Source of the DNA: an uncultured Bacilli bacterium | Lineage (GTDB): Bacteria > Bacillota_I > Bacilli_A > RF39 > UBA660 | Assembly: GCA_944358125.1 (NCBI GenBank) | Contig: CALVQM010000003.1 | Span: forward strand, 1-37,671 | DNA: 37,671 nucleotides | Direction: 5' to 3' | Part shown: one piece after another, positions 19,226 to 30,292 of the stretch | Layout: the number at the start of each line of letters is the position of its first letter | How positions within the stretch are numbered: the first letter of the stretch is position 1 | Made by a program: the position numbers and the translations under genes | The notes under the pieces: model-generated | The model's input: the letters and a program-made list of their open reading frames with translations, nothing else | Database searches by the model: none | Told to the model about the DNA's origin: nothing

Positions 19226-20599
19226 TTAGTTATTAAATTTTTGCCATGGGTCTTTTCTTTTTAATCTTTTGATTGCTTCTTCCATCGTTATTTCATCTGG
19301 CTTAATTTTATCAAGTTCATTCCATGATATGGGCATAGAGACCGTTAACTTTTTTCTAATTCTTAAAGAGTATGGGGCAACACTTGTCGCTCCTTTTGTA
19401 TTTCTCACCCAATCAATAAATATTTTACCTTTTCTTTTCGATTTTTTCATATTGCTGGTATATTTATCAGGCCATCTTGCTTCCATTAATTCTGCTATGT
19501 TTTTGGCTATAAGTCTAGCATTTTTCCAGGTTACTTTGGCATTTAGAGGAACAACCACATGATAGCCTTTACCACCACTCGTTTTTAGGAAAGATGATAG
19601 TTCATATTCATCTAAAATACTTTTTAAATCTTTTACCCCTTCTCTTAACCTTTTTAGACTTAATAATTCGTCAGGATCTAGATCAAAGACTAACATATCA
19701 GCATGAGATAAATCACTTGCTAGACAACCCCATACATGAAATTCATAACTATTCATTTGTACTTCACTAATGAGACCATTAATGTCTTTAATATAATAGT
19801 AATCATTTTGATGTTCTTTCTTACTTTTAATTCTTTTTAAACCTAAAAATTTATGTAAGTTTTCAAAATGCTTTTTAAAAAAACTAGAACCTTTTGAACC
19901 ACTTGGATAACGAATGGTACTTATAAGCCTATTTTCAATTAAAGGTAACATGCGTTTTGATACAGCTTTATAATAGTTTACAATGTCCATTTTGGTTACT
20001 TTTGGTTTTTTATAAATTATTTTATCAGGATTTGTTATTTCTATATGTTTTATATTATCTTTAATTTCATCCATGGTTCTATTTGTTTTAATACTAGTAT
20101 TAAATTCATTTATATTATCATATAAATGATATTCATCTTTATCCTTTATCAGTAACCAACTTGTATCATTATTTTTTAACTTAACTAAAGTCCATATTCC
20201 TTTTAGTCTTGAACCTTTTAAAATAAATTTTATAGGGCCTTCTTTAAAATTTGGCTTATATCCTTTTATTGGTTCCCAATAACCTTTATCCCATAGCATG
20301 ACTGTTCCACCACCATATTCACCCTTAGGAATTGTTCCTTCAAAATTACGATAATCTATGGGGTGATCCTCTACTTTAATAGCTAATCTTTTATCTTTAG
20401 GATTATAGGAAGGGCCTTTTGGTACTGCCCAACTAATTAATACTCCATTCCATTCTAAACGTAAATCATAGTGATCTTTTCTGGCAATATGATGTTGAAT
20501 ACAAAATCTTAATTTTTTTGTTTTTTTGCTTCTTTTACCCATTGGTTCTTTTGTTTTATTAAAATTTCTTTTTGCATTATATTTACTTAAACTTGACAT
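19226..20599 (-). CDS. LigD-like 3'-phosphoesterase + polymerase/primase, no ligase domain
   Basis: 457 residues from the ATG at 20599 (AGAGG ribosome binding site). The first part (about 1-165) is the LigD 3'-phosphoesterase domain: 'RFCIQHHIARKDHYDLRLEW' (31-50) with His and Asp-x-Arg, then 'EDHPIDYRNFEGTIPKGEYG'. The second part (about 195-450) is the LigD archaeo-eukaryotic primase-type polymerase: 'LVFDLDPDE' with two catalytic Asp, 'TSGGKGYHVVVPL' and 'IFIDWVRN...TSVAPYSLR' with the third Asp. The ATP-dependent ligase domain is absent and no Ku gene is in view. It follows the restriction operon, separated by a hairpin that covers its ribosome binding site. A role in end processing and gap filling is likely; a partner ligase and Ku would have to be elsewhere. 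Confidence 0.9.
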   Translation of the reverse strand: MSSLSKYNAKRNFNKTKEPMGKRSKKTKKLRFCIQHHIARKDHYDLRLEWNGVLISWAVPKGPSYNPKDKRLAIKVEDHPIDYRNFEGTIPKGEYGGGTVMLWDKGYWEPIKGYKPNFKEGPIKFILKGSRLKGIWTLVKLKNNDTSWLLIKDKDEYHLYDNINEFNTSIKTNRTMDEIKDNIKHIEITNPDKIIYKKPKVTKMDIVNYYKAVSKRMLPLIENRLISTIRYPSGSKGSSFFKKHFENLHKFLGLKRIKSKKEHQNDYYYIKDINGLISEVQMNSYEFHVWGCLASDLSHADMLVFDLDPDELLSLKRLREGVKDLKSILDEYELSSFLKTSGGKGYHVVVPLNAKVTWKNARLIAKNIAELMEARWPDKYTSNMKKSKRKGKIFIDWVRNTKGATSVAPYSLRIRKKLTVSMPISWNELDKIKPDEITMEEAIKRLKRKDPWQKFNN

Positions 20600-20606
20600 A
20601 ATAAAA

Positions 20607-20638
20607 ACCTCTAATATTAGTTTGGTGATATTAGAGGT
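20607..20638 (-). terminator. Perfect 11-bp hairpin: terminator that also contains the ligD-like ribosome binding site
   Basis: ACCTCTAATAT (20607-20617) and ATATTAGAGGT (20628-20638) pair exactly with a 10-base loop. On the minus strand it is followed by TTTTT, so it can end the restriction operon. The last arm read by the polymerase holds AGAGG, the ribosome binding site of the LigD-like gene, which would be hidden whenever the hairpin forms. Confidence 0.75.
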
Positions 20639-20648
20639 GATTATGTAT

Positions 20649-21713
20649 TTAACTATTTTCATCAGACATAAAATCATCCGCAATTGAGTTTAATTCTTTT
20701 TTAATATTTTCAAAACTTTGTTTTAAGTCGAGTATCTTTATAGACATTATATGATTCATTATTGATGTGGTGTAATTTTTCGCAAGTTCTTCATCTGTTT
20801 GGGCATATAATAGCATTCCTCTCACATCGTTATCTTTTTTCCAGGATTCATTCGCTACATACACATATAATTGATTCCAATTATCTCTATTAATTGTCTT
20901 CTTATCAAATCTACCTTTTTTTAAAATGCTTGCGTAAAATTTTGTATCTATTATTAAAATTCTTTTCTTATAGTATAAATTAATGTCAGTAATCATTTTA
21001 GGTAAAAACTCTATTAACGGATAATTTGAATCAATATTCCAATTAATTATTTTTATACTTGGATTTAATTGTGGATAATGTTTTTTATAATATTCTCTTA
21101 CGAATCTTTCATATATAGTTGATATTTTTTCTTCATCTATAAATTCTCTATACTTGATGCTTCCATCTTTCTGCGTAATTATTAAGGATTCCAAAATTAA
21201 ATAGCATATATTTATTATAACTCTGTAATCTTTATTTGTCTTATTTAAATATATATTATTCCAATATATTTTATTTATTTCCAATATGTCTATATTGTTT
21301 AAGTGAAGATATATTTTTTTTATTTCTTTTTTGTTTTTATTCTTCATTTTCTCAGATTTAATTAAATAAAATAATGTTGTTTTAATGATTTTATTTAAAA
21401 TAACATTTTCGCTATATTCATCATACTCACATACTATTTTCTTATTAATAAAGGTTCGTTTTTTAATTGATTCTGTGATTTTTATTTTACCACGCGTTAT
21501 GGCAGTTAATTCATCTGTTAATTTATAATCTTTATAGAATCCCTTTTTTATTAATCTATTAATTAAAAAGATTAACATACTTGAAAGCAAATCATATATA
21601 TTTGAGAAATCTTCTATATTTCCAAAAAAATCTTTTTTTTCGATTAATTTATCAAGTTTAAATGCGTATGCCAACATATAATATATGTTACTAATTCTAT
21701 AGTCTTTATTCAT
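20649..21713 (-). CDS. McrC-like restriction subunit (PD-(D/E)xK nuclease)
   Basis: 354 residues. The N-terminal 'ISNIYYMLAYAFKLDKL' and 'LTAITRGKIKITESIKK' are typical of McrC proteins. The nuclease core is near residues 240-265: 'EFLPKMITDINLYYKKR' then 'ILIIDTKFYASI', giving the Asp...Asp-x-Lys pattern of PD-(D/E)xK enzymes. McrC binds the McrB hexamer and supplies DNA cleavage. Here the gene follows the McrB-like gene with an 8-base overlap (ATGAATAA). Because two cytosine methyltransferases are in the same operon, the complex more likely cuts unmodified DNA, as in the BsuMI and LlaJI systems, than methylated DNA. It ends the operon at the hairpin before the LigD-like gene. Confidence 0.85.
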   Translation of the reverse strand: MNKDYRISNIYYMLAYAFKLDKLIEKKDFFGNIEDFSNIYDLLSSMLIFLINRLIKKGFYKDYKLTDELTAITRGKIKITESIKKRTFINKKIVCEYDEYSENVILNKIIKTTLFYLIKSEKMKNKNKKEIKKIYLHLNNIDILEINKIYWNNIYLNKTNKDYRVIINICYLILESLIITQKDGSIKYREFIDEEKISTIYERFVREYYKKHYPQLNPSIKIINWNIDSNYPLIEFLPKMITDINLYYKKRILIIDTKFYASILKKGRFDKKTINRDNWNQLYVYVANESWKKDNDVRGMLLYAQTDEELAKNYTTSIMNHIMSIKILDLKQSFENIKKELNSIADDFMSDENS

Positions 21714-23385
21714 CTTTTAATGAATTAATAAGTTTCTCTTTCCAATCATTATATTTGCTTTCATCATCAAACCAATACTCTTTTAGCAATGGCAATATAT
21801 CAAATTCAACTATATCTTCTAATTCTTTTTTATATTCAAAATTTAAATTACAAAAATAACTGTGTCCAATTTCAAATCCACTACCTAATGACTCATCTTC
21901 ACATATAAATTCATTTAATTTTTTTATTACTTCTAATAATTTTTCAAGATTTTTGTTATCGAATTGTGTTATATAATTTTTAAATTTTTCATTATTAAAA
22001 GCTGGTTTGACTTTAAAGAAAGAGAATCTTCTTCTTAAAGCATAGTCTATTAATGTCAAGCTTCTATCGGCAGTATTTAACATTCCGATGATGTACAGAT
22101 TATTTGGAACAAAAAATTCTTCTCTAGAATAGGGCAATATAACTTTTTCCACCTCACGTTTATCAACTTCAATTAGCATCATCAATTCTCCCAATATTTT
22201 GCTTATATTCCCACGATTAATTTCGTCAATAATAACGTAATAACTATTTTCTTTATCATTTTGAGCTTTTAAGCAAAAATCTTTGAATATTCCATTTACT
22301 AATTCAAATTCATTATTTACCGGTCGAATTCCCTCAATAAAATCTTCATAAGAATAACTTTGATGAAATTGTATCGTTATCATTTTTTGATTATCCATAG
22401 ATCCAATCCTTGAATATGCTAATCTTTTTGCCATAAAAGTTTTGCCAACACCTGGAGATCCTTCTAAAATAATATTTTTCTTCTTATTTAAAAGATTGTT
22501 TAATCTTTCATAGTCTTCTTCATTAATGAAAATGTCATTTAAAAAATCCTCTCTTTTATAATCTTCTACATTTTTATTTAAGTTATCTTCAATAGGATTT
22601 TCATAAAAATTATTTTCGTCTAATAAATTTATATATCGATACAACATTTCTCCTAAAAAATATGGATGTTCTTTAGTAACTTCTGGTATCATTTCTCTTA
22701 TATATTTATTTATATCATAGGAAATTTTTTCTGGTGAATCACTATTTTTTATAGGGATTTTAAAATAGCTTGATATAATTATAAGTTTTTCTTTGGAACA
22801 AATATTTAAAAATTTTTCCGGATAATAAATTGAGGCTAGCTTGGTTAATACCATTGACATTCCTTTTAGTTTTGGATATTTGTCTTTAGCATTTTCCATT
22901 TTCTCTACATTTTGCAATGAACTCAGAAATGCAAATAATTCATTTCTAAAATCTGTCCAATAAATCTCGGGGTTATCTATTTCTTGATTATTTACTCCAT
23001 AGTATTTTTTTGTTTCTCTTTTTTTATATATTCCAAATTTAGCGGCTGATCCACCTCCAATTGTAATTCCAAGATTTTTATATTTACCATATTCTAATTT
23101 ATAGCTTAAGGACTCTTTATATCTATCTGTTCCTAAGGCATAATCGCCTAATTTGAGCTCATTTAATTTGCTAAGAGGATATTCATCCAAATATTCCTCC
23201 CTTCTTATGGCCCAATCATATTTATTTTTTATTTTTTCAATATTTTCTAAATAAAATTTTTTAAAATCATTAATATAATGGGTTCTATTTTCATCAAAAA
23301 TCGTTTCCTCAGTAATGTCTAATTTCGTTTTTATTTTATTTATGCTTTCTTTAATATTGTTTTTTAATATTTCTTCGCTATTCAT
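21706..23385 (-). CDS. McrB-like AAA+ GTPase of a restriction system
   Basis: 559 residues. The C-terminal AAA+ motor has Walker A 'GSPGVGKT' near 310, Walker B 'YYVIIDEINRGNISKI' near 383, the McrB-specific 'MLNTADRSL' near 433 and 'DYALRRRFSF' as arginine finger. The first 280 residues are not the EcoKMcrB methyl-binding domain that I know; they contain 'TIGGGSAAKFGIYKKRE' and 'ELFAFLSSLQNVEKM' and would be the DNA-recognition part. It is expected to form a GTP-driven ring that recruits the McrC-like nuclease. It overlaps both neighbours by 8 bases. BsuMI YdiS and LlaJI R1 are known relatives that act with methyltransferase pairs. Confidence 0.9.
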   Translation of the reverse strand: MNSEEILKNNIKESINKIKTKLDITEETIFDENRTHYINDFKKFYLENIEKIKNKYDWAIRREEYLDEYPLSKLNELKLGDYALGTDRYKESLSYKLEYGKYKNLGITIGGGSAAKFGIYKKRETKKYYGVNNQEIDNPEIYWTDFRNELFAFLSSLQNVEKMENAKDKYPKLKGMSMVLTKLASIYYPEKFLNICSKEKLIIISSYFKIPIKNSDSPEKISYDINKYIREMIPEVTKEHPYFLGEMLYRYINLLDENNFYENPIEDNLNKNVEDYKREDFLNDIFINEEDYERLNNLLNKKKNIILEGSPGVGKTFMAKRLAYSRIGSMDNQKMITIQFHQSYSYEDFIEGIRPVNNEFELVNGIFKDFCLKAQNDKENSYYVIIDEINRGNISKILGELMMLIEVDKREVEKVILPYSREEFFVPNNLYIIGMLNTADRSLTLIDYALRRRFSFFKVKPAFNNEKFKNYITQFDNKNLEKLLEVIKKLNEFICEDESLGSGFEIGHSYFCNLNFEYKKELEDIVEFDILPLLKEYWFDDESKYNDWKEKLINSLKDE

Positions 23386-24136
23386 TTTTTGTATCCTCCA
23401 TATTTTCTTTCAAAAGTTCATTGATTATTTCTATTTTATCATTATTTAGTTTAAAATTATTTTGATCAATTTTTTTTACTAAATTACCTTGCTCTTCTGA
23501 TAATAAAGCTATAAAATAGTTAAAAGAATTATTAGATTTATAGCTAACTTTCTCGTTATTGACGTTTATTATTTTTATAATAAATGAGTTTGGATTTTTT
23601 TTATATTTTTGAATATAATCTATTTCATCTAATTTATTTTGTTCACAATATTTTAAAATAAAAAACTGTTCTCTATTAATACTATTATATTTTTTTAAAA
23701 ATTTCAATATTTGACAATAGGAACAATAAAAATTATAGGCTTTTTTTTCCATGTCATTTAATCCCATTAAAATTATATCACTTTTAATTTCCTTCATATT
23801 AAAAACAATTTCATTTGATTTTTCCGATATTTTTTTTAAGGCTTTTATACACTCTATATATGCTTCCCCCAAAGACGTAAAAAATTGAGAAAAATCTACT
23901 CCTTCTTTGTAGTCATTAATAAATCCTAAATTATATAAAAATGGCATCAAAGATCTTATATAACTTCCTGTAAATATTTTATTATTAATCAAATATTCTT
24001 GAAATTTTTTATAAGGTAACTGTTTATTATTGTTTTCTAATATAATTTTTTCTATAAGCAATATTTTTTTATTTGTTTCTTCTGTTAAGCTTATTCCCGG
24101 ATTTGATATCTGATTTATAGTAATACATTTTTTCAT
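23378..24136 (-). CDS. Unrecognised protein of the restriction operon
   Basis: 252 residues; I do not recognise the family. No membrane segment, no clear catalytic motif. Residues 20-85 ('TNKKILLIEKIILENNNKQL...SYIRSLMPFLYNLGFI') look like winged-helix sequence, with a possible recognition helix at 'GSYIRSLMPFLYNLGF'. Residues 135-180 contain 'YNFYCSYCQILKFLKKYN', with two cysteines three apart, and are rich in Lys, Asn and Glu. It is 4 bases downstream of the first methyltransferase and overlaps the McrB-like gene by 8 bases, so it is an integral part of the system. By position it could correspond to the third restriction component of BsuMI (YdiR), or act as a specificity or assembly subunit; that is inference. 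Confidence 0.7.
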   Translation of the reverse strand: MKKCITINQISNPGISLTEETNKKILLIEKIILENNNKQLPYKKFQEYLINNKIFTGSYIRSLMPFLYNLGFINDYKEGVDFSQFFTSLGEAYIECIKALKKISEKSNEIVFNMKEIKSDIILMGLNDMEKKAYNFYCSYCQILKFLKKYNSINREQFFILKYCEQNKLDEIDYIQKYKKNPNSFIIKIINVNNEKVSYKSNNSFNYFIALLSEEQGNLVKKIDQNNFKLNNDKIEIINELLKENMEDTKNE

Positions 24137-24140
24137 TTTA

Positions 24141-25160
24141 TCATCCTATCTGTCGCTTTATTTCCTTAGCAATTTCATACGCTAATAGTGGTGGGACTGC
24201 ATTTCCAACTTGTTTATATTGACTAGTTTTAGATCCTAAAAATATAAAATCATCTGTAAAAGATTGTATTCTTGCCGATTCCCTAACTGTTGGAATTCTA
24301 TTTTCTCTATAGTGAAAGTAGTTTCTATGGCCAGTATCAATTGTATTTGATGGCTCATTTGAATTCATTCTTTGAAATGCTTTATTATATTTTCTTATTT
24401 TCCAATATTTTGCCGGAAGATTTGAAATTTTACCACCATCCGGAATCATATTAATTATTTTTATAGTTTGTTCTGTGTGTTTAGTAAATTCATTATTGTA
24501 TAATTTTATGTTATTTTCGCGCATTTTTTTTTGATATTCAGTATTTGCATCATGGGTGTATTCATTTTCTTTATCAGATAGGTCTGATATGGCTTCGTAT
24601 ACCCTTATTTTTTTTTCTTCTGTTTTTTTTGGAAAGCAAAATTTTTTCCCTTTTATTCCTACAAAAAAAACTCTATATCTGTTTTGTGGAACGCCAAAAT
24701 CAGCTGCGTTTAATAATTTATATTGTACATTATATCCTAATTTCGAAAATTTAGCAATAATGTCTTCTTTAAATTTTCCGTTATTTAATGTTAATAACCC
24801 TTTTACATTTTCTAAAACGAAAAACTCAGGGTTTAACATTTCTACGATTCTATAATATTGCAAATATAAATAATTTCTTTCGTCCCCTATGATACGTTTC
24901 CCAACGCTACTATAGCCTTGACATGGTGGACCCCCAATTATTCCTGCTATTTTTGTGTTTTTTAATTTAGAATTAATTAAATTAGAATCTAGATTTAAAA
25001 TATTGTCACAAATGGCAATAGCTTTTTTATGATTATAATTATAGGTTTTTATAGCATCCTCCCAGAAATCAATTGCCAATACCGGCTCAAACCCTGCCAT
25101 TTCAAATCCTTTACTTAATCCACCACATCCACAAAATAAGTCAATTATTTTATTATTCAT
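24141..25160 (-). CDS. DNA (cytosine-5) methyltransferase, second of a pair
   Basis: 339 residues with the full set of C5-methyltransferase motifs: 'DLFCGCGGLSKGFEMAGF' (motif I, 7-24), 'GGPPCQGYSS' with catalytic Cys80 (motif IV), 'LENVKGLL' (VI), 'GVPQNRYRVFFVGI' (VIII) and 'QYKQVGNAVPPLLAYEIA' (X). It methylates carbon 5 of a cytosine in a specific site. Its sequence is clearly related to the other methyltransferase of the operon, including the target-recognition segment before 'TIDTGHRNYF', so they probably arose by duplication and may modify opposite strands of one asymmetric site. Its ATG overlaps the end of the other methyltransferase gene by 8 bases (ATGAATAA). Confidence 0.95.
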   Translation of the reverse strand: MNNKIIDLFCGCGGLSKGFEMAGFEPVLAIDFWEDAIKTYNYNHKKAIAICDNILNLDSNLINSKLKNTKIAGIIGGPPCQGYSSVGKRIIGDERNYLYLQYYRIVEMLNPEFFVLENVKGLLTLNNGKFKEDIIAKFSKLGYNVQYKLLNAADFGVPQNRYRVFFVGIKGKKFCFPKKTEEKKIRVYEAISDLSDKENEYTHDANTEYQKKMRENNIKLYNNEFTKHTEQTIKIINMIPDGGKISNLPAKYWKIRKYNKAFQRMNSNEPSNTIDTGHRNYFHYRENRIPTVRESARIQSFTDDFIFLGSKTSQYKQVGNAVPPLLAYEIAKEIKRQIG

Positions 25161-26193
25161 GTTTTAATACCTCCTTTAGTTCTTCAGCAATTGCTTTTGC
25201 TAATAACGGAGGAACCGCATTGCCAACTTGTCTATATTGAGCAGTTCTGGAACCAAAAAAAACAAAATCATCTGGAAAAGATTGAATGCGAGCCGCTTCT
25301 CTAACTGTTGGAATTCTATTAAATATCGGATGAAAATAATTACTATGTGAATTACCCGTATCTATGGTTACCGAGATATCATCCTCATTTAGCCTTTTAT
25401 ATGCTGATGAATGTCTATTATTTCTTTGATTTTCAAATAATTTTTTAGGTATAGCGCTCCAATTTTCACCTTGCTTCACATACGATATTCTTTCCTGAAC
25501 TATAGATGATGGATATTTTACCAAATGATTATAAATTTCTCGATTATTTATCTTAGGGATAAATTTTAAATCATTTTTTGCTCTTTGTTCAAATTGATAT
25601 AAATCTCCAATCGCATCTTTTACAGTTACTTTTTTCTTTACTTTCTTTAATTTTTCGAAATCAAAGGTTGTCTCTTTTGTTATAACAAAAAAATTTCTTA
25701 AGCGTTTTTGTGGAACTCCAAAATCGGCTGCATTTAAAACTTTAAACGTCACATTATATCCTCTATCAGAAAAAATTTCTTGAATATTTTTCTTAGCATA
25801 GCCCTTATTTTCTGTAACAATTTCTTTTACATTTTCTATTACAATAGCTTTAGGATGTATTAAATCAACAAATTTTACAAATTCAAAGAATAATTTATTT
25901 CTAGGATCATCAGCTATTTTATTCCTGTTTGCCGAAGAAAAACCTTGGCAAGGTGGTCCACCGATGATTACGTCTATCTTCTCTACATTTTTAAGCTTTT
26001 TTTTGATTTCTTCTTTACTTATATTTAAGATGTCATAGCAACTTGCTTTCGCATTTTTAAAATTATTTTCGTATGTTTTTATAGCATCTATATTATTATC
26101 AATACCATAAACAATATTATATCCTGCCATTTCAAATCCTTTGCTTAAACCTCCACATCCACAGAATAAATCTAAAACATTATATTTTTTCAT
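25153..26193 (-). CDS. DNA (cytosine-5) methyltransferase, first of a pair
   Basis: 346 residues; motifs I ('DLFCGCGGLSKGFEMAGY'), IV ('GGPPCQGFSS' with catalytic Cys82), VI ('IENVKEIV'), VIII ('GVPQKRLRNFFVIT'), IX ('RIPTVREAARIQSFPDDF') and X ('QVGNAVPPLLAKAIA') are all present and in order. It is the first enzyme gene after the regulator, which would let modification start before restriction when the operon enters a new cell. Its ATG overlaps the regulator stop by 4 bases. It shares extended identical blocks with the second enzyme at both ends, while the middle differs more. Confidence 0.96.
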   Translation of the reverse strand: MKKYNVLDLFCGCGGLSKGFEMAGYNIVYGIDNNIDAIKTYENNFKNAKASCYDILNISKEEIKKKLKNVEKIDVIIGGPPCQGFSSANRNKIADDPRNKLFFEFVKFVDLIHPKAIVIENVKEIVTENKGYAKKNIQEIFSDRGYNVTFKVLNAADFGVPQKRLRNFFVITKETTFDFEKLKKVKKKVTVKDAIGDLYQFEQRAKNDLKFIPKINNREIYNHLVKYPSSIVQERISYVKQGENWSAIPKKLFENQRNNRHSSAYKRLNEDDISVTIDTGNSHSNYFHPIFNRIPTVREAARIQSFPDDFVFFGSRTAQYRQVGNAVPPLLAKAIAEELKEVLKHE

Positions 26194-26561
26194 TTTACAT
26201 CCTCCTTGTTTTCTTTACTATCTAAAGCTTTCTCCCACCCTGTTAATTCATTTCTTTTTATTTTTTCTCTAATGCATCTTTTTAAATTTTCGTTTGTTTT
26301 TATATATTCAACCATATCGTAAGGGACAAGGTTAACTCTGTTTTCTACGGCCAAGTCCATTAATTTATATACTTCACTTTCATTTAATTTAAGATTCTTT
26401 CCTATGCTTTTTAATATTTTAAAAGTCGGTACTCTTTTGTTTTTTTCTATATCATTCATATAGGCTGGCGATATATTGCAACTTATTGCTAGACTTCTTG
26501 ATGACATGTTTTTTTCTATTCTTTTATTTGTTATAAAATCACCTAAATTTAATTTTTTCAT
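26190..26561 (-). CDS. XRE-family regulator of the restriction-modification operon
   Basis: 123 residues. An HTH_3/XRE domain fills residues 5-62: 'LGDFITNKRIEKNMSSRSLAISCNISPAYMNDIEKNKRVPT' has the usual helix-turn-helix with 'SRSLA' and 'SPAYMNDIEK'. The C-terminal 60 residues are charged. Restriction-modification systems often carry such a controller (C protein) that delays restriction, but these are usually shorter (about 80 residues). As first gene of the operon it probably autoregulates the promoter at 26.6 kb. Start ATG with an AAAGGTG ribosome binding site; 4-base overlap with the next gene. Confidence 0.88.
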   Translation of the reverse strand: MKKLNLGDFITNKRIEKNMSSRSLAISCNISPAYMNDIEKNKRVPTFKILKSIGKNLKLNESEVYKLMDLAVENRVNLVPYDMVEYIKTNENLKRCIREKIKRNELTGWEKALDSKENKEDVK

Positions 26562-26599
26562 ATTTTCACCTTTGTTTACTATTAAGCTTATATGTTAAT

Positions 26600-26628
26600 A
26601 TAATACACTATAACTTTAATTTTTTCAA
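26600..26628 (-). promoter_or_regulatory. Sigma-A promoter of the restriction-modification operon
   Basis: TTGAAA (26623-26628), a 17-base spacer and TATTAT (26600-26605) on the minus strand, 38 bases before the regulator start codon. No clear palindromic C-box was found next to it. Confidence 0.7.
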
Positions 26629-26757: not shown

Positions 26758-26834
26758 TGGGGCGAGATAAGGGAGTCGAACCCTTGCATAACAGAGCCAC
26801 AATCTGCCGTGTTAACCACTTCACCAATCCCGCC
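26758..26834 (-). tRNA. tRNA-His (GTG anticodon)
   Basis: On the minus strand the cloverleaf is complete: acceptor GCGGGAT with ATCTCGC (one G-U), the extra G at position -1 (26834) opposite C73 that identifies histidine tRNAs, D arm, anticodon GTG (26798-26800) in the loop TTGTGGC, T arm with GGTTCGACTC, and an encoded CCA (26758-26760). A promoter lies directly upstream. The gene's 3' end points toward the restriction island. Confidence 0.96.
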
Positions 26835-26928: not shown

Positions 26929-28359
26929 ATGAAAAACACTAGTATTTGGATAAATAATCGAGAAAAAAGTAGTCAAACAATAAAACAAGATATGGAAGTA
27001 GATGTTTTAATTATTGGGGGAGGTATAACAGGATTATCTACTTTACTTGAACTTCAAAATAGTAATTTGAAGACTATTTTGGTTGAGAGAAATACGTGTG
27101 GTTATGGTGTAACTTTTAGAAGTACGGCTAAAATTACTTACTTGCAAGAACAAATATTCATGAATATTCGAAAAACTAGTTATGAGAATGCATTGTTATA
27201 TCTAGCTAGTCAAATTGATGCGGTAAATTGGCTTAAAAATATAGTTCATAGTTACCATATTGATTGCGATTTGAAAAAAGTATCTTCTTATCTATTTACT
27301 AATGAAGAAGAAAATGTAGCAAAATTAGAAGCTGAATATAATTTTTTATCCCAAAATCATGTAAAGGTCAAGAAAACTAAATTAGAGGGAATCAATAATA
27401 TTCTTGCTTTACAAGTTGATGATTCCTATACTTTTCATCCTTTAAAATATATTAATCATCTTAAAGCAATGTTTAGTGATTCTATTTATGAAAATTCTAA
27501 AGTTACTAAAATAGATAAAAAAGATGGCTATTATTATTCTTCTGTAAATAACTTGCAAATTAAAAGTAAATATGTAGTACTCGCTTCTCATTATCCTTAT
27601 TTTTTAATTCCCTTTTTAATGCCATTTAAAAGTCATGTTGAAACTTCTTATATTGGCGCTAAAAGGGTTAAACAATGTTTGGATATTAGTGCGATAAATA
27701 TTGATAAACCTTGTATATCGATGCGTTATTATGATGACGGTAACAATTGTTATTTAATTTATTTATATCAATCTTTTGCAACTTGCAATATTAAAAGTAT
27801 TAAAGATAATTTTGATGAGTTAAAGAAACTGCAAAAGTTTGACTATATGTGGAGTAATAAAGATATTATTACCAATGATTATATTCCCTATATAGGATGT
27901 ATTTATAAAAACGATGATACTTTTTTAATAGCTACTGGTTATAATACTTGGGGTATGACGAATGGGACTTTAGCTGGTAAAATACTAGCTGATATCATTC
28001 TAAAAAAAGACAATCTTTATATTTCTTTGTTTGATCCTCACCGTCACATTAATTTAAATAAAATTGTAAGATTGCCAATTGATCTTGGATGCAATCTAAA
28101 AGCTATAATTAAAAGTAGTAAAGGAAATGTTAATAACTCTAAAGTTATCTACACAAAAAAAGATGGAAGAAATGTTGCTATATATAAAGATGAAAAAGAA
28201 GTGGAACATATTGTTTTAAATAAATGCCCGCATATGAAGTGTGGATTAGTTTTTAACGAGGTTGAAAAGACTTGGGATTGCCTATGTCATGGTTCTCGTT
28301 TTACACTTGATGGTAAATGTATAGAGGGTCCTAGTTATTTTGATATTAGTTTTAAATAA
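26929..28359 (+). CDS. FAD-dependent oxidoreductase with C-terminal Rieske 2Fe-2S domain
   Basis: 476 residues. A DAO-type FAD fold starts with 'VDVLIIGGGITGLST' (GxGxxG-type, about 24-38), followed by 'RNTCGYGVTFRSTAKIT', and ends with 'FLIATGYNTWGMTNGTLAG'. The C-terminal Rieske domain has ligands Cys433 and His435 ('CPHMKC') and Cys451 and His454 ('CLCHGSRF'). This is the arrangement of B. subtilis YhfW-like proteins; the substrate is unknown. No strong ribosome binding site precedes the ATG and the promoter is unclear. A strong terminator follows. Confidence 0.9.
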   Translation: MKNTSIWINNREKSSQTIKQDMEVDVLIIGGGITGLSTLLELQNSNLKTILVERNTCGYGVTFRSTAKITYLQEQIFMNIRKTSYENALLYLASQIDAVNWLKNIVHSYHIDCDLKKVSSYLFTNEEENVAKLEAEYNFLSQNHVKVKKTKLEGINNILALQVDDSYTFHPLKYINHLKAMFSDSIYENSKVTKIDKKDGYYYSSVNNLQIKSKYVVLASHYPYFLIPFLMPFKSHVETSYIGAKRVKQCLDISAINIDKPCISMRYYDDGNNCYLIYLYQSFATCNIKSIKDNFDELKKLQKFDYMWSNKDIITNDYIPYIGCIYKNDDTFLIATGYNTWGMTNGTLAGKILADIILKKDNLYISLFDPHRHINLNKIVRLPIDLGCNLKAIIKSSKGNVNNSKVIYTKKDGRNVAIYKDEKEVEHIVLNKCPHMKCGLVFNEVEKTWDCLCHGSRFTLDGKCIEGPSYFDISFK

Positions 28360-28435: not shown

Positions 28436-30292
28436 GTGATAATATTTTCGTGTCTTAAAAAAGAATTTGATTTATATGTAAAAGAAGGTATCATTAGTAA
28501 TAAGGTTTATGATGCTTATAAAGAAAAAATGGGTAAAAAAACAAAACTAAATCAAATTAAATCATGGGCTAATAGTTTACCTATGATGAGTTTTATATTG
28601 CAAGATTTACCTGATAATACTGGTATTAGTATTGAATTTAATATTCCTTTAACAAGTAAAAGAATTGATTTGGTAGTTAGTGGATATAATTTGAATCGCG
28701 AACCAGTTCTTCTTTTATTTGAACTTAAGCAGTGGGAAGTTATAAATGATGTTGCAAGTGAAGATGCAGTTATTAAAACAATAATTTCTAATAAAGAAAA
28801 GATTTCTTTACATCCTTCTTATCAAGTTCTGTGTTATGCTGAATTACTTTTAAATTACAATAAGTATATTGAAGAGAGTCATGTTCATGTTATTCCCCTT
28901 GTTTACTTACATAATTATTCTTTTAATAATGATGACCCCTTATTACTTAATAAATTTAAAAAATATTATACGAATGCTCCTATATATGGAAGTAACGATA
29001 AATATATGCTTCGAGCTATTGTAAATCACTATATTAAATTTGGAGATGATTTAAAATTAATAGAATATATTGATAATAGTGAAGTAAAGCCTAACAAAAA
29101 GTTATTGGATGCTATTGATAAAATGATCCAAGATAAAAAGGAATATACTTTACTTGATGAACAAAAAGTTATTGCGGAAGCTATAAAATGGGAAGCTAAA
29201 CAAGCATTCACTAATAATCAAAAAAGCGTTGTTATTGTGAGTGGTGGTCCCGGAACAGGTAAATCAGTACTTGCTATTAATTTGCTTGGGGAATTACTAA
29301 AATTAGGACTAATGGGTGCTTATGTTTCTAAAAATATGGCTCCTAGAAAGGTTTATAAAAATAGTTTGGTTTATAATAATGAAGTTAGTATTCATGAATT
29401 ATTTAAAAGTTTAGGTTATTTTTTTCGTGATCAAGAAAATAAATATGATTTTTTACTTGTAGATGAAGCGCATAGATTACAAGAAAAATCAGGTGTTCAT
29501 TATAATATTGGAGAAAATCAAATTAAAGAGATTATCCATGCTTCTAAACTTACTGTTTTTTTTGTTGATGAAGCTCAAATGGTTACTTTAAAGGATATTG
29601 GCACAATTAGTAATATAAAATATTTTGCTAAATTGGCGCATGCTAAAATATTAGAATATGAACTTACTAGTCAATTTCGGTGTAATGGAAGTGATTCTTA
29701 TTTAGATTTTGTTGAACATTTTTTATATAATAAAAAAGGAAGCTGTAAATTTCATTTTGATTTCCAGGTTCTTGATTCACCTAATGAATTAAGAGATTTG
29801 ATAAAGCTTAAAAATACTCATAATAACGCAAGGTTAGTTGCAGGTTTTTGTTGGAGGAGAGATGCACAGCAAGCGGATAATCAAGAGTTTATGGATATTA
29901 AAATTGGAGATTTTGAAGCTAGTTGGAATTTAAAACATGGGGAGCCATTTGCTACCAGAAAAAGTGCCATTAATGAGGTTGGTTGTATTCACAATGTTCA
30001 AGGATTAGAATTTGATTATATTGGCGTAATTATTGGGCCTGATTTGAAATACGAAAATAGAAAAGTAGTTGCTGATTATAAGAAGCGCGCTAATACAGAG
30101 AAATCATTATATGGACTTTATGTTTTAATGAAGCAAGATAAGGAATATTATGAACGTCTTGCTGATAAAATTATTCGTAATACTTACCGCGTCCTTTTAA
30201 CTAGAGGAATTAAGGGTTGCTATGTTTATGCCTGTGATCATAAATTAAATGAACATTTAAAGAAAATAGTAGAAAATAATTTTATTTCTTAA
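28436..30292 (+). CDS. DUF2075-type helicase/ATPase with N-terminal nuclease-like domain
   Basis: 618 residues from a GTG start with an AGGAAGTG ribosome binding site. Residues 65-100 have a PD-(D/E)xK-like pattern: Asp78 in 'RIDLVV' and Glu96-x-Lys98 in 'LFELKQW'. The ATPase part has Walker A 'SGGPGTGKS' (269-277), 'LLVDEAHRLQ', 'VFFVDEAQMV', 'LTSQFRCNG', 'VQGLEFDYIGVIIG' and 'VLLTRGIKGCYVY', which is the DUF2075/superfamily-1-like set. Similar proteins are scattered among bacterial defence and DNA-repair genes, but the function is not established. It stands alone between two terminators. Confidence 0.85.
   Translation: MIIFSCLKKEFDLYVKEGIISNKVYDAYKEKMGKKTKLNQIKSWANSLPMMSFILQDLPDNTGISIEFNIPLTSKRIDLVVSGYNLNREPVLLLFELKQWEVINDVASEDAVIKTIISNKEKISLHPSYQVLCYAELLLNYNKYIEESHVHVIPLVYLHNYSFNNDDPLLLNKFKKYYTNAPIYGSNDKYMLRAIVNHYIKFGDDLKLIEYIDNSEVKPNKKLLDAIDKMIQDKKEYTLLDEQKVIAEAIKWEAKQAFTNNQKSVVIVSGGPGTGKSVLAINLLGELLKLGLMGAYVSKNMAPRKVYKNSLVYNNEVSIHELFKSLGYFFRDQENKYDFLLVDEAHRLQEKSGVHYNIGENQIKEIIHASKLTVFFVDEAQMVTLKDIGTISNIKYFAKLAHAKILEYELTSQFRCNGSDSYLDFVEHFLYNKKGSCKFHFDFQVLDSPNELRDLIKLKNTHNNARLVAGFCWRRDAQQADNQEFMDIKIGDFEASWNLKHGEPFATRKSAINEVGCIHNVQGLEFDYIGVIIGPDLKYENRKVVADYKKRANTEKSLYGLYVLMKQDKEYYERLADKIIRNTYRVLLTRGIKGCYVYACDHKLNEHLKKIVENNFIS

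Follow-up and report, generated by a model that had tools for sequence, protein, structure and literature searches.

A six-gene restriction operon combining a McrBC-lineage engine, two cytosine methyltransferases, and a proposed separate specificity subunit

The DNA analyzed here is a 37,671-nucleotide stretch (the window) from an uncultured Bacilli bacterium, and it contains a six-gene operon that encodes an XRE-type regulator, two C5-cytosine methyltransferases (M1 and M2), a 252-residue protein (S), a McrB-like GTPase, and a McrC-like nuclease. The operon probably specifies a Type II-like, GTP-driven restriction–modification (R–M) system in which a McrBC engine, consisting of the GTPase and the nuclease, would cut unmethylated sites chosen by S acting as a separate specificity subunit. 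A preliminary description of this DNA had proposed a GTP-driven type II-like system akin to LlaJI and BsuMI, and that reading fits all of the comparative evidence. In the proposed mechanism, M1 and M2 would methylate cytosines in both strands of a probably asymmetric site to protect the host. S would bind the unmethylated site and recruit or load the McrB GTPase ring, possibly through a stretch of ~35 residues at the McrB N terminus. GTP hydrolysis would drive the complex along the DNA, and McrC would cut. Methylation would block S and spare the host DNA, and the XRE protein would time expression. We infer the steps of DNA reading by S, its block by methylation, translocation, and cleavage of unmethylated DNA.

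Operon organization, engine lineage, and the helical module

The six genes form a single tight operon on the minus strand between positions 20649 and 26561. Its features are listed in the order of transcription.

26600..26628, minus strand: candidate operon promoter, TTGAAA-17-TATTAT; a consensus match only, and the count of such matches is not far above that in shuffled sequences
26190..26561, minus strand: XRE/Cro-type regulator, 123 residues, a probable controller protein (PF01381, HTH_3, E 2e-5)
25153..26193, minus strand: M1, C5-cytosine methyltransferase, 346 residues (PF00145, E 4.5e-76)
24141..25160, minus strand: M2, C5-cytosine methyltransferase, 339 residues (PF00145, E 1.3e-80)
23378..24136, minus strand: S, 252 residues, proposed separate specificity (target-recognition) subunit, with homologues in the same position in viral loci L051, L052, and L058
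23395..23399, minus strand: GGAGG Shine-Dalgarno site for McrB, read from the sequence; it lies within the end of the S gene, with the ATGAATAG overlap after it
21706..23385, minus strand: McrB-like protein, 559 residues (NF008457, E 2.3e-81; AAA_5)
20649..21713, minus strand: McrC-like PD-(D/E)xK nuclease subunit, 354 residues (PF10117, E 6.8e-26; NF007277, E 1.1e-87)

The XRE and M1 genes overlap by 4 nucleotides, and the M1/M2, S/McrB, and McrB/McrC junctions each overlap by 8 nucleotides. M2 and S are the only neighbors that do not overlap, and they are separated by a 4-nucleotide gap. These coordinates agree with the preliminary description of one operon whose genes overlap or lie no more than 4 bases apart, and its assignment of the regulator, two C5 methyltransferases, McrB-like, and McrC-like genes is confirmed by matches in Pfam, NCBIfam, and PADLOC. 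The stretch singled out in that description ends at 26628 and takes in the promoter region. The regulator also matches the PADLOC profiles HTH_VI (5.5e-11) and Control_protein (4e-6) and is 59% identical to the XRE protein of locus L027. Strong Shine-Dalgarno sites are present at three starts, those of M1, M2, and McrB, and the GGAGG of McrB stands 9 nucleotides before its ATG. The idea that S and McrB are one gene split by a sequencing or frameshift artefact was ruled out: McrB has its own GGAGG, the 8-nucleotide overlap is like those at other operon junctions, and the viral homologues of S are separate genes too. The S/McrB boundary reads as a normal coupled start and not as an obvious frameshift.

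All of the C5-methyltransferase motifs tested (PCQ, ENV, QxRxR, and RExxRxQSF) are intact in both M1 and M2. The motif check thus revealed no sign of the inactive methyltransferases that the preliminary description had named as evidence against its reading. Methyltransferase pairs were also seen next to a different type of restriction enzyme. The C5-methyltransferase pair in L022 (3163–6372), closely related to M1 and M2, lies beside an NgoFVII-type PLD restriction enzyme (PF09565 with a B3-like C terminus) without McrBC, and the more distant C5-methyltransferase pair in L055 (5762–9181) adjoins an NgoFVII-type PLD restriction enzyme, also without McrBC.

Judged by its profile matches, the engine is of the canonical Escherichia coli McrBC lineage and not that of LlaJI, because its resemblance to E. 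coli McrB and McrC is close and that to LlaJI.R1 distant, and the LlaJI nuclease belongs to PF09563. The match to the E. coli McrB model NF008457 scores 273.8 bits over the GTPase domain, which does not reach the equivalog cutoff of 637 set for full-length McrB, and a search of PDB sequences matched the AAA domain (residues 273–554) to the E. coli McrB structures 6hz4, 7vsr, and 6ut6 with E 1e-80. The McrC-like protein scores 294 bits against the E. coli McrC model NF007277, below the equivalog cutoff of 338. LlaJI.R1 profiles give only a distant match to McrB (PADLOC REase_II, a 585-residue profile, 57 bits). In Pfam and NCBIfam, the nuclease matches PF10117 and NF007277 only and has no PF09563 (RE_LlaJI) match; PF09563 nucleases were matched in L023, L051, and L070. 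The McrB motifs are present (Walker A GSPGVGKT at 309, Walker B IIDEIN at 385, NxxD NTADRS at 437, and the RRRF arginines), and the McrC catalytic D..DxK is intact (DINL..IIDTK). The LlaJI and BsuMI precedents cited in the preliminary description hold for the kind of system, GTP-driven and type II-like, but the engine is not of the LlaJI lineage.

The McrB-like protein consists of an N-terminal helix/linker of ~35 residues, a helical module (residues 36–275), and the AAA+ GTPase domain. Residues 38–213 match the N-terminal part of PD-T4-1 (PADLOC E 2.5e-16), and the module is also found in McrB proteins of Enterococcus faecium and Peribacillus plasmids. An alignment of the module retrieved 20 genome and 4 viral loci, some of which are stand-alone McrBCs without methyltransferases. 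In L011 and L040 the Pfam order is DUF4357-module-AAA, and in L010 and L032 the module lies between DUF4357 (Pfam) and a region that looks EVE-like, where Pfam does not report EVE. An AlphaFold2 model of residues 36–275 built from 21 sequences is nearly all helical, with a predicted local distance difference test score (pLDDT) of 91 and a predicted template modeling (TM) score of 0.87. Foldseek found no significant match to this model in the PDB or BFVD. The best, non-significant PDB fold matches were mainly HhH-GPD DNA glycosylases (MutY, E 0.35 and TM about 0.3; OGG; endonuclease III), and this likeness was set aside as too weak. The GIGGGTAxKFGIY motif in the module (window 22561–23280) slightly resembles a helix-hairpin-helix motif and may be a lead to a base-flipping or DNA-binding role.

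Searches of Pfam, PDB sequences, and the Foldseek comparison of the model detected no ADAM/DUF3578, EVE, YTH, or SRA domain in the window McrB and no B3 domain in its N terminus. By sequence and model, the module appears as a conserved part common to many McrBs that matches no known 5-methylcytosine (5mC)-binding domain. The preliminary description had called the McrB N terminus unlike anything nameable and had raised the question of a known 5mC-binding fold. The sequence and fold searches indicate that it has no such fold, but it is not unique since it also occurs in stand-alone McrBCs and PD-T4-1. Because the module is shared in this way, S is the likelier reader of the site.

Exchange of recognition parts and the S family

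One or two methyltransferase genes directly precede McrB in six of the 20 genome loci with the module (L027, L029, L030, L034, L039, and L041). The GTPase and McrC in these loci are of the same lineage as those of the window, and an extra N-terminal domain of ~200–340 residues lies ahead of the module. The viral contig L047 has the same methyltransferase–McrB plan with a 160-residue domain ahead of the module, and L028 carries the module on a different motor. In L030, the domain ahead of the module hits a Type II restriction-enzyme profile (E 3.6e-7). The engine most closely related to that of the window is found in L027 (module 64%, AAA 73%, McrC 65%), where 251 extra residues stand ahead of the module; the recognition parts of the two systems are unrelated. 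The window McrB starts ~35 residues before the module and has no fused domain, and the S gene stands exactly at that place. Compared with the recognition domains that are fused in L027, L029, L030, L047, or L023, S has no detectable homology (z about 0), so it is not claimed to be the same domain split off but only to share its place and role.

Pairs of loci reveal how the parts are exchanged. L039 and L041 are 89, 90, and 94% identical in module, AAA, and McrC, respectively; there is no relation between their recognition domains, and the methyltransferases are unrelated or 38% identical. L047 was compared with L023, a LlaJI-type R1/R2 pair (PADLOC E 1e-96; PF09563). The values are 64–66% for the methyltransferases, 37% for the recognition domain (z 24), 31% for AAA, and 21% for McrC. 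The corresponding comparison of L028 with L034 gives 74% for the methyltransferase, 44% for the recognition domain, and 31% for AAA, and the nucleases are unrelated. The rule suggested by these alignments is that the recognition part follows the methyltransferases and the engine of motor and nuclease is exchangeable. Such tracking would be a Type II-like need, since the reader must recognize the very site that the writer modifies.

S gave no match in Pfam or PADLOC, only sub-threshold matches in NCBIfam (E 0.05 or worse), and one chance-level match in the PDB (E 0.22), bearing out the preliminary view that it resembles nothing nameable. Direct homology searches with S found none in genome contigs, viral contigs, or plasmids and only marginal, non-syntenic matches in 296 genomes, and family searches for S yielded only marginal matches in 391 genomes of Clostridia and 392 of Bacillota. 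Homologues were reached in three viral contigs, L051 and L052 through an M1 search and L058 through a search with the S alignment. The gene order in all three is helix-turn-helix (HTH)-M1-M2-S-GTPase-nuclease. The S proteins of L051 (261 residues) and L052 (267 residues) match the window protein by blastp with E 3e-18 and 6e-17, respectively, and that of L058 (260 residues) matches by tblastn with E 1e-11.

S keeps its position and is co-inherited with the methyltransferases even though the motors differ. The GTPase of L051 is LlaJI-type and its nuclease PF09563, L052 and L058 have a short GTPase (346–349 residues) with a 462–463-residue McrC (PF10117 for L052), and the window has a module-bearing McrB with a canonical McrC. 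L051 and L058 are 72% identical in M1, 80% in M2, and 55% in S; their AAA parts are 27% identical, and their nucleases are unrelated. Over their first 35 residues the two GTPases are 50% identical (z 9.9), as would be expected if this segment served for docking and were inherited with S, and the stretch is clear among L051, L052, and L058. In the M1 tree, the window protein groups with the M1 proteins of S-carrying loci (support 98/97), apart from those of L047, L022, and L023, whose partners are either an NgoFVII-type enzyme bearing a B3-like domain or a fused domain that resembles LlaJI.R1. In the M1 recognition region, the S carriers including the window share two inserted residues (GN[SQ]HSNY[FY]HP versus GHMNYFHP).

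Another small protein family occupies the same slot as S, between a C5 methyltransferase and a McrB-like GTPase, in L038 (3441–4229) and L024 (5949–6602). The two proteins are 28% identical (E 1e-19), and L038 has a weak LAGLIDADG_3 match (E 0.014). This slot protein is possibly a homing-endonuclease-derived reader.

Genomic surroundings and a frameshift in relatives

26758..26833, minus strand: tRNA-His, just upstream of the operon and a likely insertion neighborhood

The operon looks to be a recent or variable island, because the sister species G022 keeps the pair of the DAO (oxidoreductase) gene and tRNA-His with a different gene alongside and no R–M operon there, and M1, the McrB N terminus, and S were not found in the G022 genome. 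The oxidoreductase gene of the window (26929–28359) encodes a flavin adenine dinucleotide-dependent enzyme fused to a Rieske domain that is 53% identical to the sister-species copy, also beside tRNA-His. A Schlafen-group-3 helicase protein (28436–30292; PF09848) with an uncharacterised N-terminal region of ~250 residues lies near the R–M operon. On the other side, the window encodes a LigD-like protein (19226–20683) with 3'-phosphoesterase and primase-polymerase domains and without the ligase domain, in a genome of 1.2 Mb. McrBC-like genes adjoin LigD in both species: the McrC gene in the window, and in G022 a LlaJI-type pair (L070, 6071–8744) located directly beside LigD. The L070 pair consists of a 526-residue R1 with MrcB_N and a 370-residue R2 (PF09563), and no methyltransferase is present in the stretch read.

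In three relatives of the window McrB, all belonging to a single Clostridia family, one additional C, the same in each, interrupts the Walker A codons (L034, 8808–8831; L039, 8820–8843; L041, 5004–5027). The context is GGT GCT CCR C GGA GTN GGA AAA ACA, and the frame is broken at the identical place. The ratio of nonsynonymous to synonymous substitution rates between L039 and L041 is about 0.13 upstream and 0.08 downstream of the break, which indicates purifying selection on both sides. The 0-frame codon at the break is CGG, the only CGG in the examined coding sequence of L034 and L041 and one of three in L039. These McrB genes are candidates for a programmed +1 frameshift controlling the restriction motor. 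A scan of viral sequences for the pattern found one unrelated GC-rich match only.

Alternative readings, known systems, and implications

The helical module could instead read the DNA, with S as an accessory factor for assembly or regulation or as an inhibitor keeping McrBC in check on self DNA. Several stand-alone McrBs (such as L045 and the Streptococcus suis loci L042–L044) have no N-terminal domain besides the module, and the closest, non-significant fold matches of the module are to DNA-binding enzymes. We consider this arrangement improbable. The module is 89% alike in L039 and L041 despite their differing methyltransferases, which is unexpected for a part that must match them. In further McrBs it also stands alongside DUF4357 and other N-terminal domains, making it a common part, and S rather than the module tracks the methyltransferases across different motors. 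A still smaller chance is given to M1, M2, and S being an ordinary Type II R–M system with S as the restriction enzyme and McrBC as a separate, co-transcribed Type IV system. A McrB-like GTPase and a McrC-like nuclease directly follow S in all four S-family loci. Moreover, PD-(D/E)xK, HNH, GIY-YIG, or PLD residues are not conserved in the four-member family; among charged residues only one R, one K, and two E are invariant, and histidine is absent from the window member. These features outweigh the facts that sequence orphans of ~252 residues, accompanied by a C protein and two methyltransferases, are numerous among Type II endonucleases, and that in G010 (L022) the M1/M2 relatives have a free-standing NgoFVII-type enzyme as partner. 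It is just as doubtful that the operon houses, next to its 5mC methyltransferases, a methylation-dependent McrBC guard directed at foreign 5mC or at cells with a changed methylation pattern. The canonical E. coli McrBC lineage is Type IV, but neither sequence nor fold revealed any of the methylcytosine-reader domains sought in the window McrB, and such a guard would be self-destructive alongside two active 5mC writers of its own operon unless a further exemption applied. Methyltransferase association is also frequent among the McrB GTPases covered by a recent census (PMC11090510).

Several observations count against S as the separate specificity subunit. Its homologues are few, comprising the window and three viral contigs. 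The docking stretch is only suggestive in the window McrB (p 0.002–0.12) and is not found there by profile, which is too little to establish it as conserved in the window. The sole domain lead for S is weak (DUF5343 in L058, E 0.002), its single-sequence AlphaFold2 model is poor (pLDDT 43), and DNA binding by S is a property that we infer. The stand-alone McrBs that have the module alone must recognize something without S, and the module could contribute to recognition.

The operon can be compared with four known types of system. LlaJI restricts unmethylated DNA, with R1 binding the site and determining specificity and two methyltransferases providing protection (PMC1459862; PMC12707154). The LlaJI site is asymmetric and is bound unmethylated (PMC1459862; PMC12707154; PMC7680126), and the Helicobacter pylori LlaJI.R1 binds its site through an N-terminal B3 domain (PMC7680126). 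Like LlaJI (Lactococcus pNP40; Helicobacter LlaJI.R1/R2), the window has two C5 methyltransferases followed by a McrB-like GTPase and a McrC-like nuclease. In LlaJI, R1 bears a B3 domain at its own N terminus and R2 belongs to PF09563, whereas the window engine is of the E. coli McrBC lineage and has the added helical module, with the proposed reader as a separate gene. BsuMI (Bacillus subtilis) and LlaI are three-gene restriction cassettes with a short GTPase (LlaIB/BsuMIB, 337–343 residues) (PMC1459862). The window also has three restriction open reading frames, with a separate first gene before the GTPase and nuclease genes, but its 559-residue GTPase has the added module and theirs is short, without the long N-terminal half. 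L052 and L058 fit the BsuMI/LlaI plan fully with S, the short GTPase, and the longer McrC. The Type IV McrBC of E. coli K-12 provides the closest sequence relatives of the window GTPase domain and McrC, but the window lacks its ADAM/DUF3578 methylcytosine-binding domain and has two methyltransferases in the same overlapping operon. The E. coli anti-phage protein PD-T4-1 shares the N-terminal module of McrB; the match is limited to that part, and the rest of PD-T4-1 is absent from the window McrB.

The McrBC census of Bell et al. (2024) reports that McrB GTPases are often tied to DNA methyltransferases and calls this surprising for Type IV systems. The passages of the census concerned with these GTPases defer their description to later work and do not describe a separate specificity subunit (PMC11090510). 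A trans-acting specificity subunit with an HsdS-like role is not described for McrBC engines in the literature surveyed, nor was the combination of a canonical McrBC engine, a PD-T4-1-type module, and a detached, methyltransferase-linked specificity protein found there.

The domain swaps offer a simple answer to the McrBC–methyltransferase association that can be tested gene by gene: the motor and nuclease would be generic, and the recognition part would track the methyltransferases. More tentatively, and with the balance tilting somewhat against it, M1-M2-S may be a portable targeting cassette in which a trans-acting S attaches to a short tag at the N terminus of any McrB-like GTPase that it is joined to, and the second, unrelated family in L024 and L038 (LAGLIDADG-like) may take this slot in other systems. 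If so, McrBC motors would be re-targetable by swapping one small protein, by evolution and perhaps by experimenters. Should S prove to be a genuine trans-acting specificity subunit, McrBC engines would rank with the Type I enzymes as systems that are re-targetable via a separate subunit.

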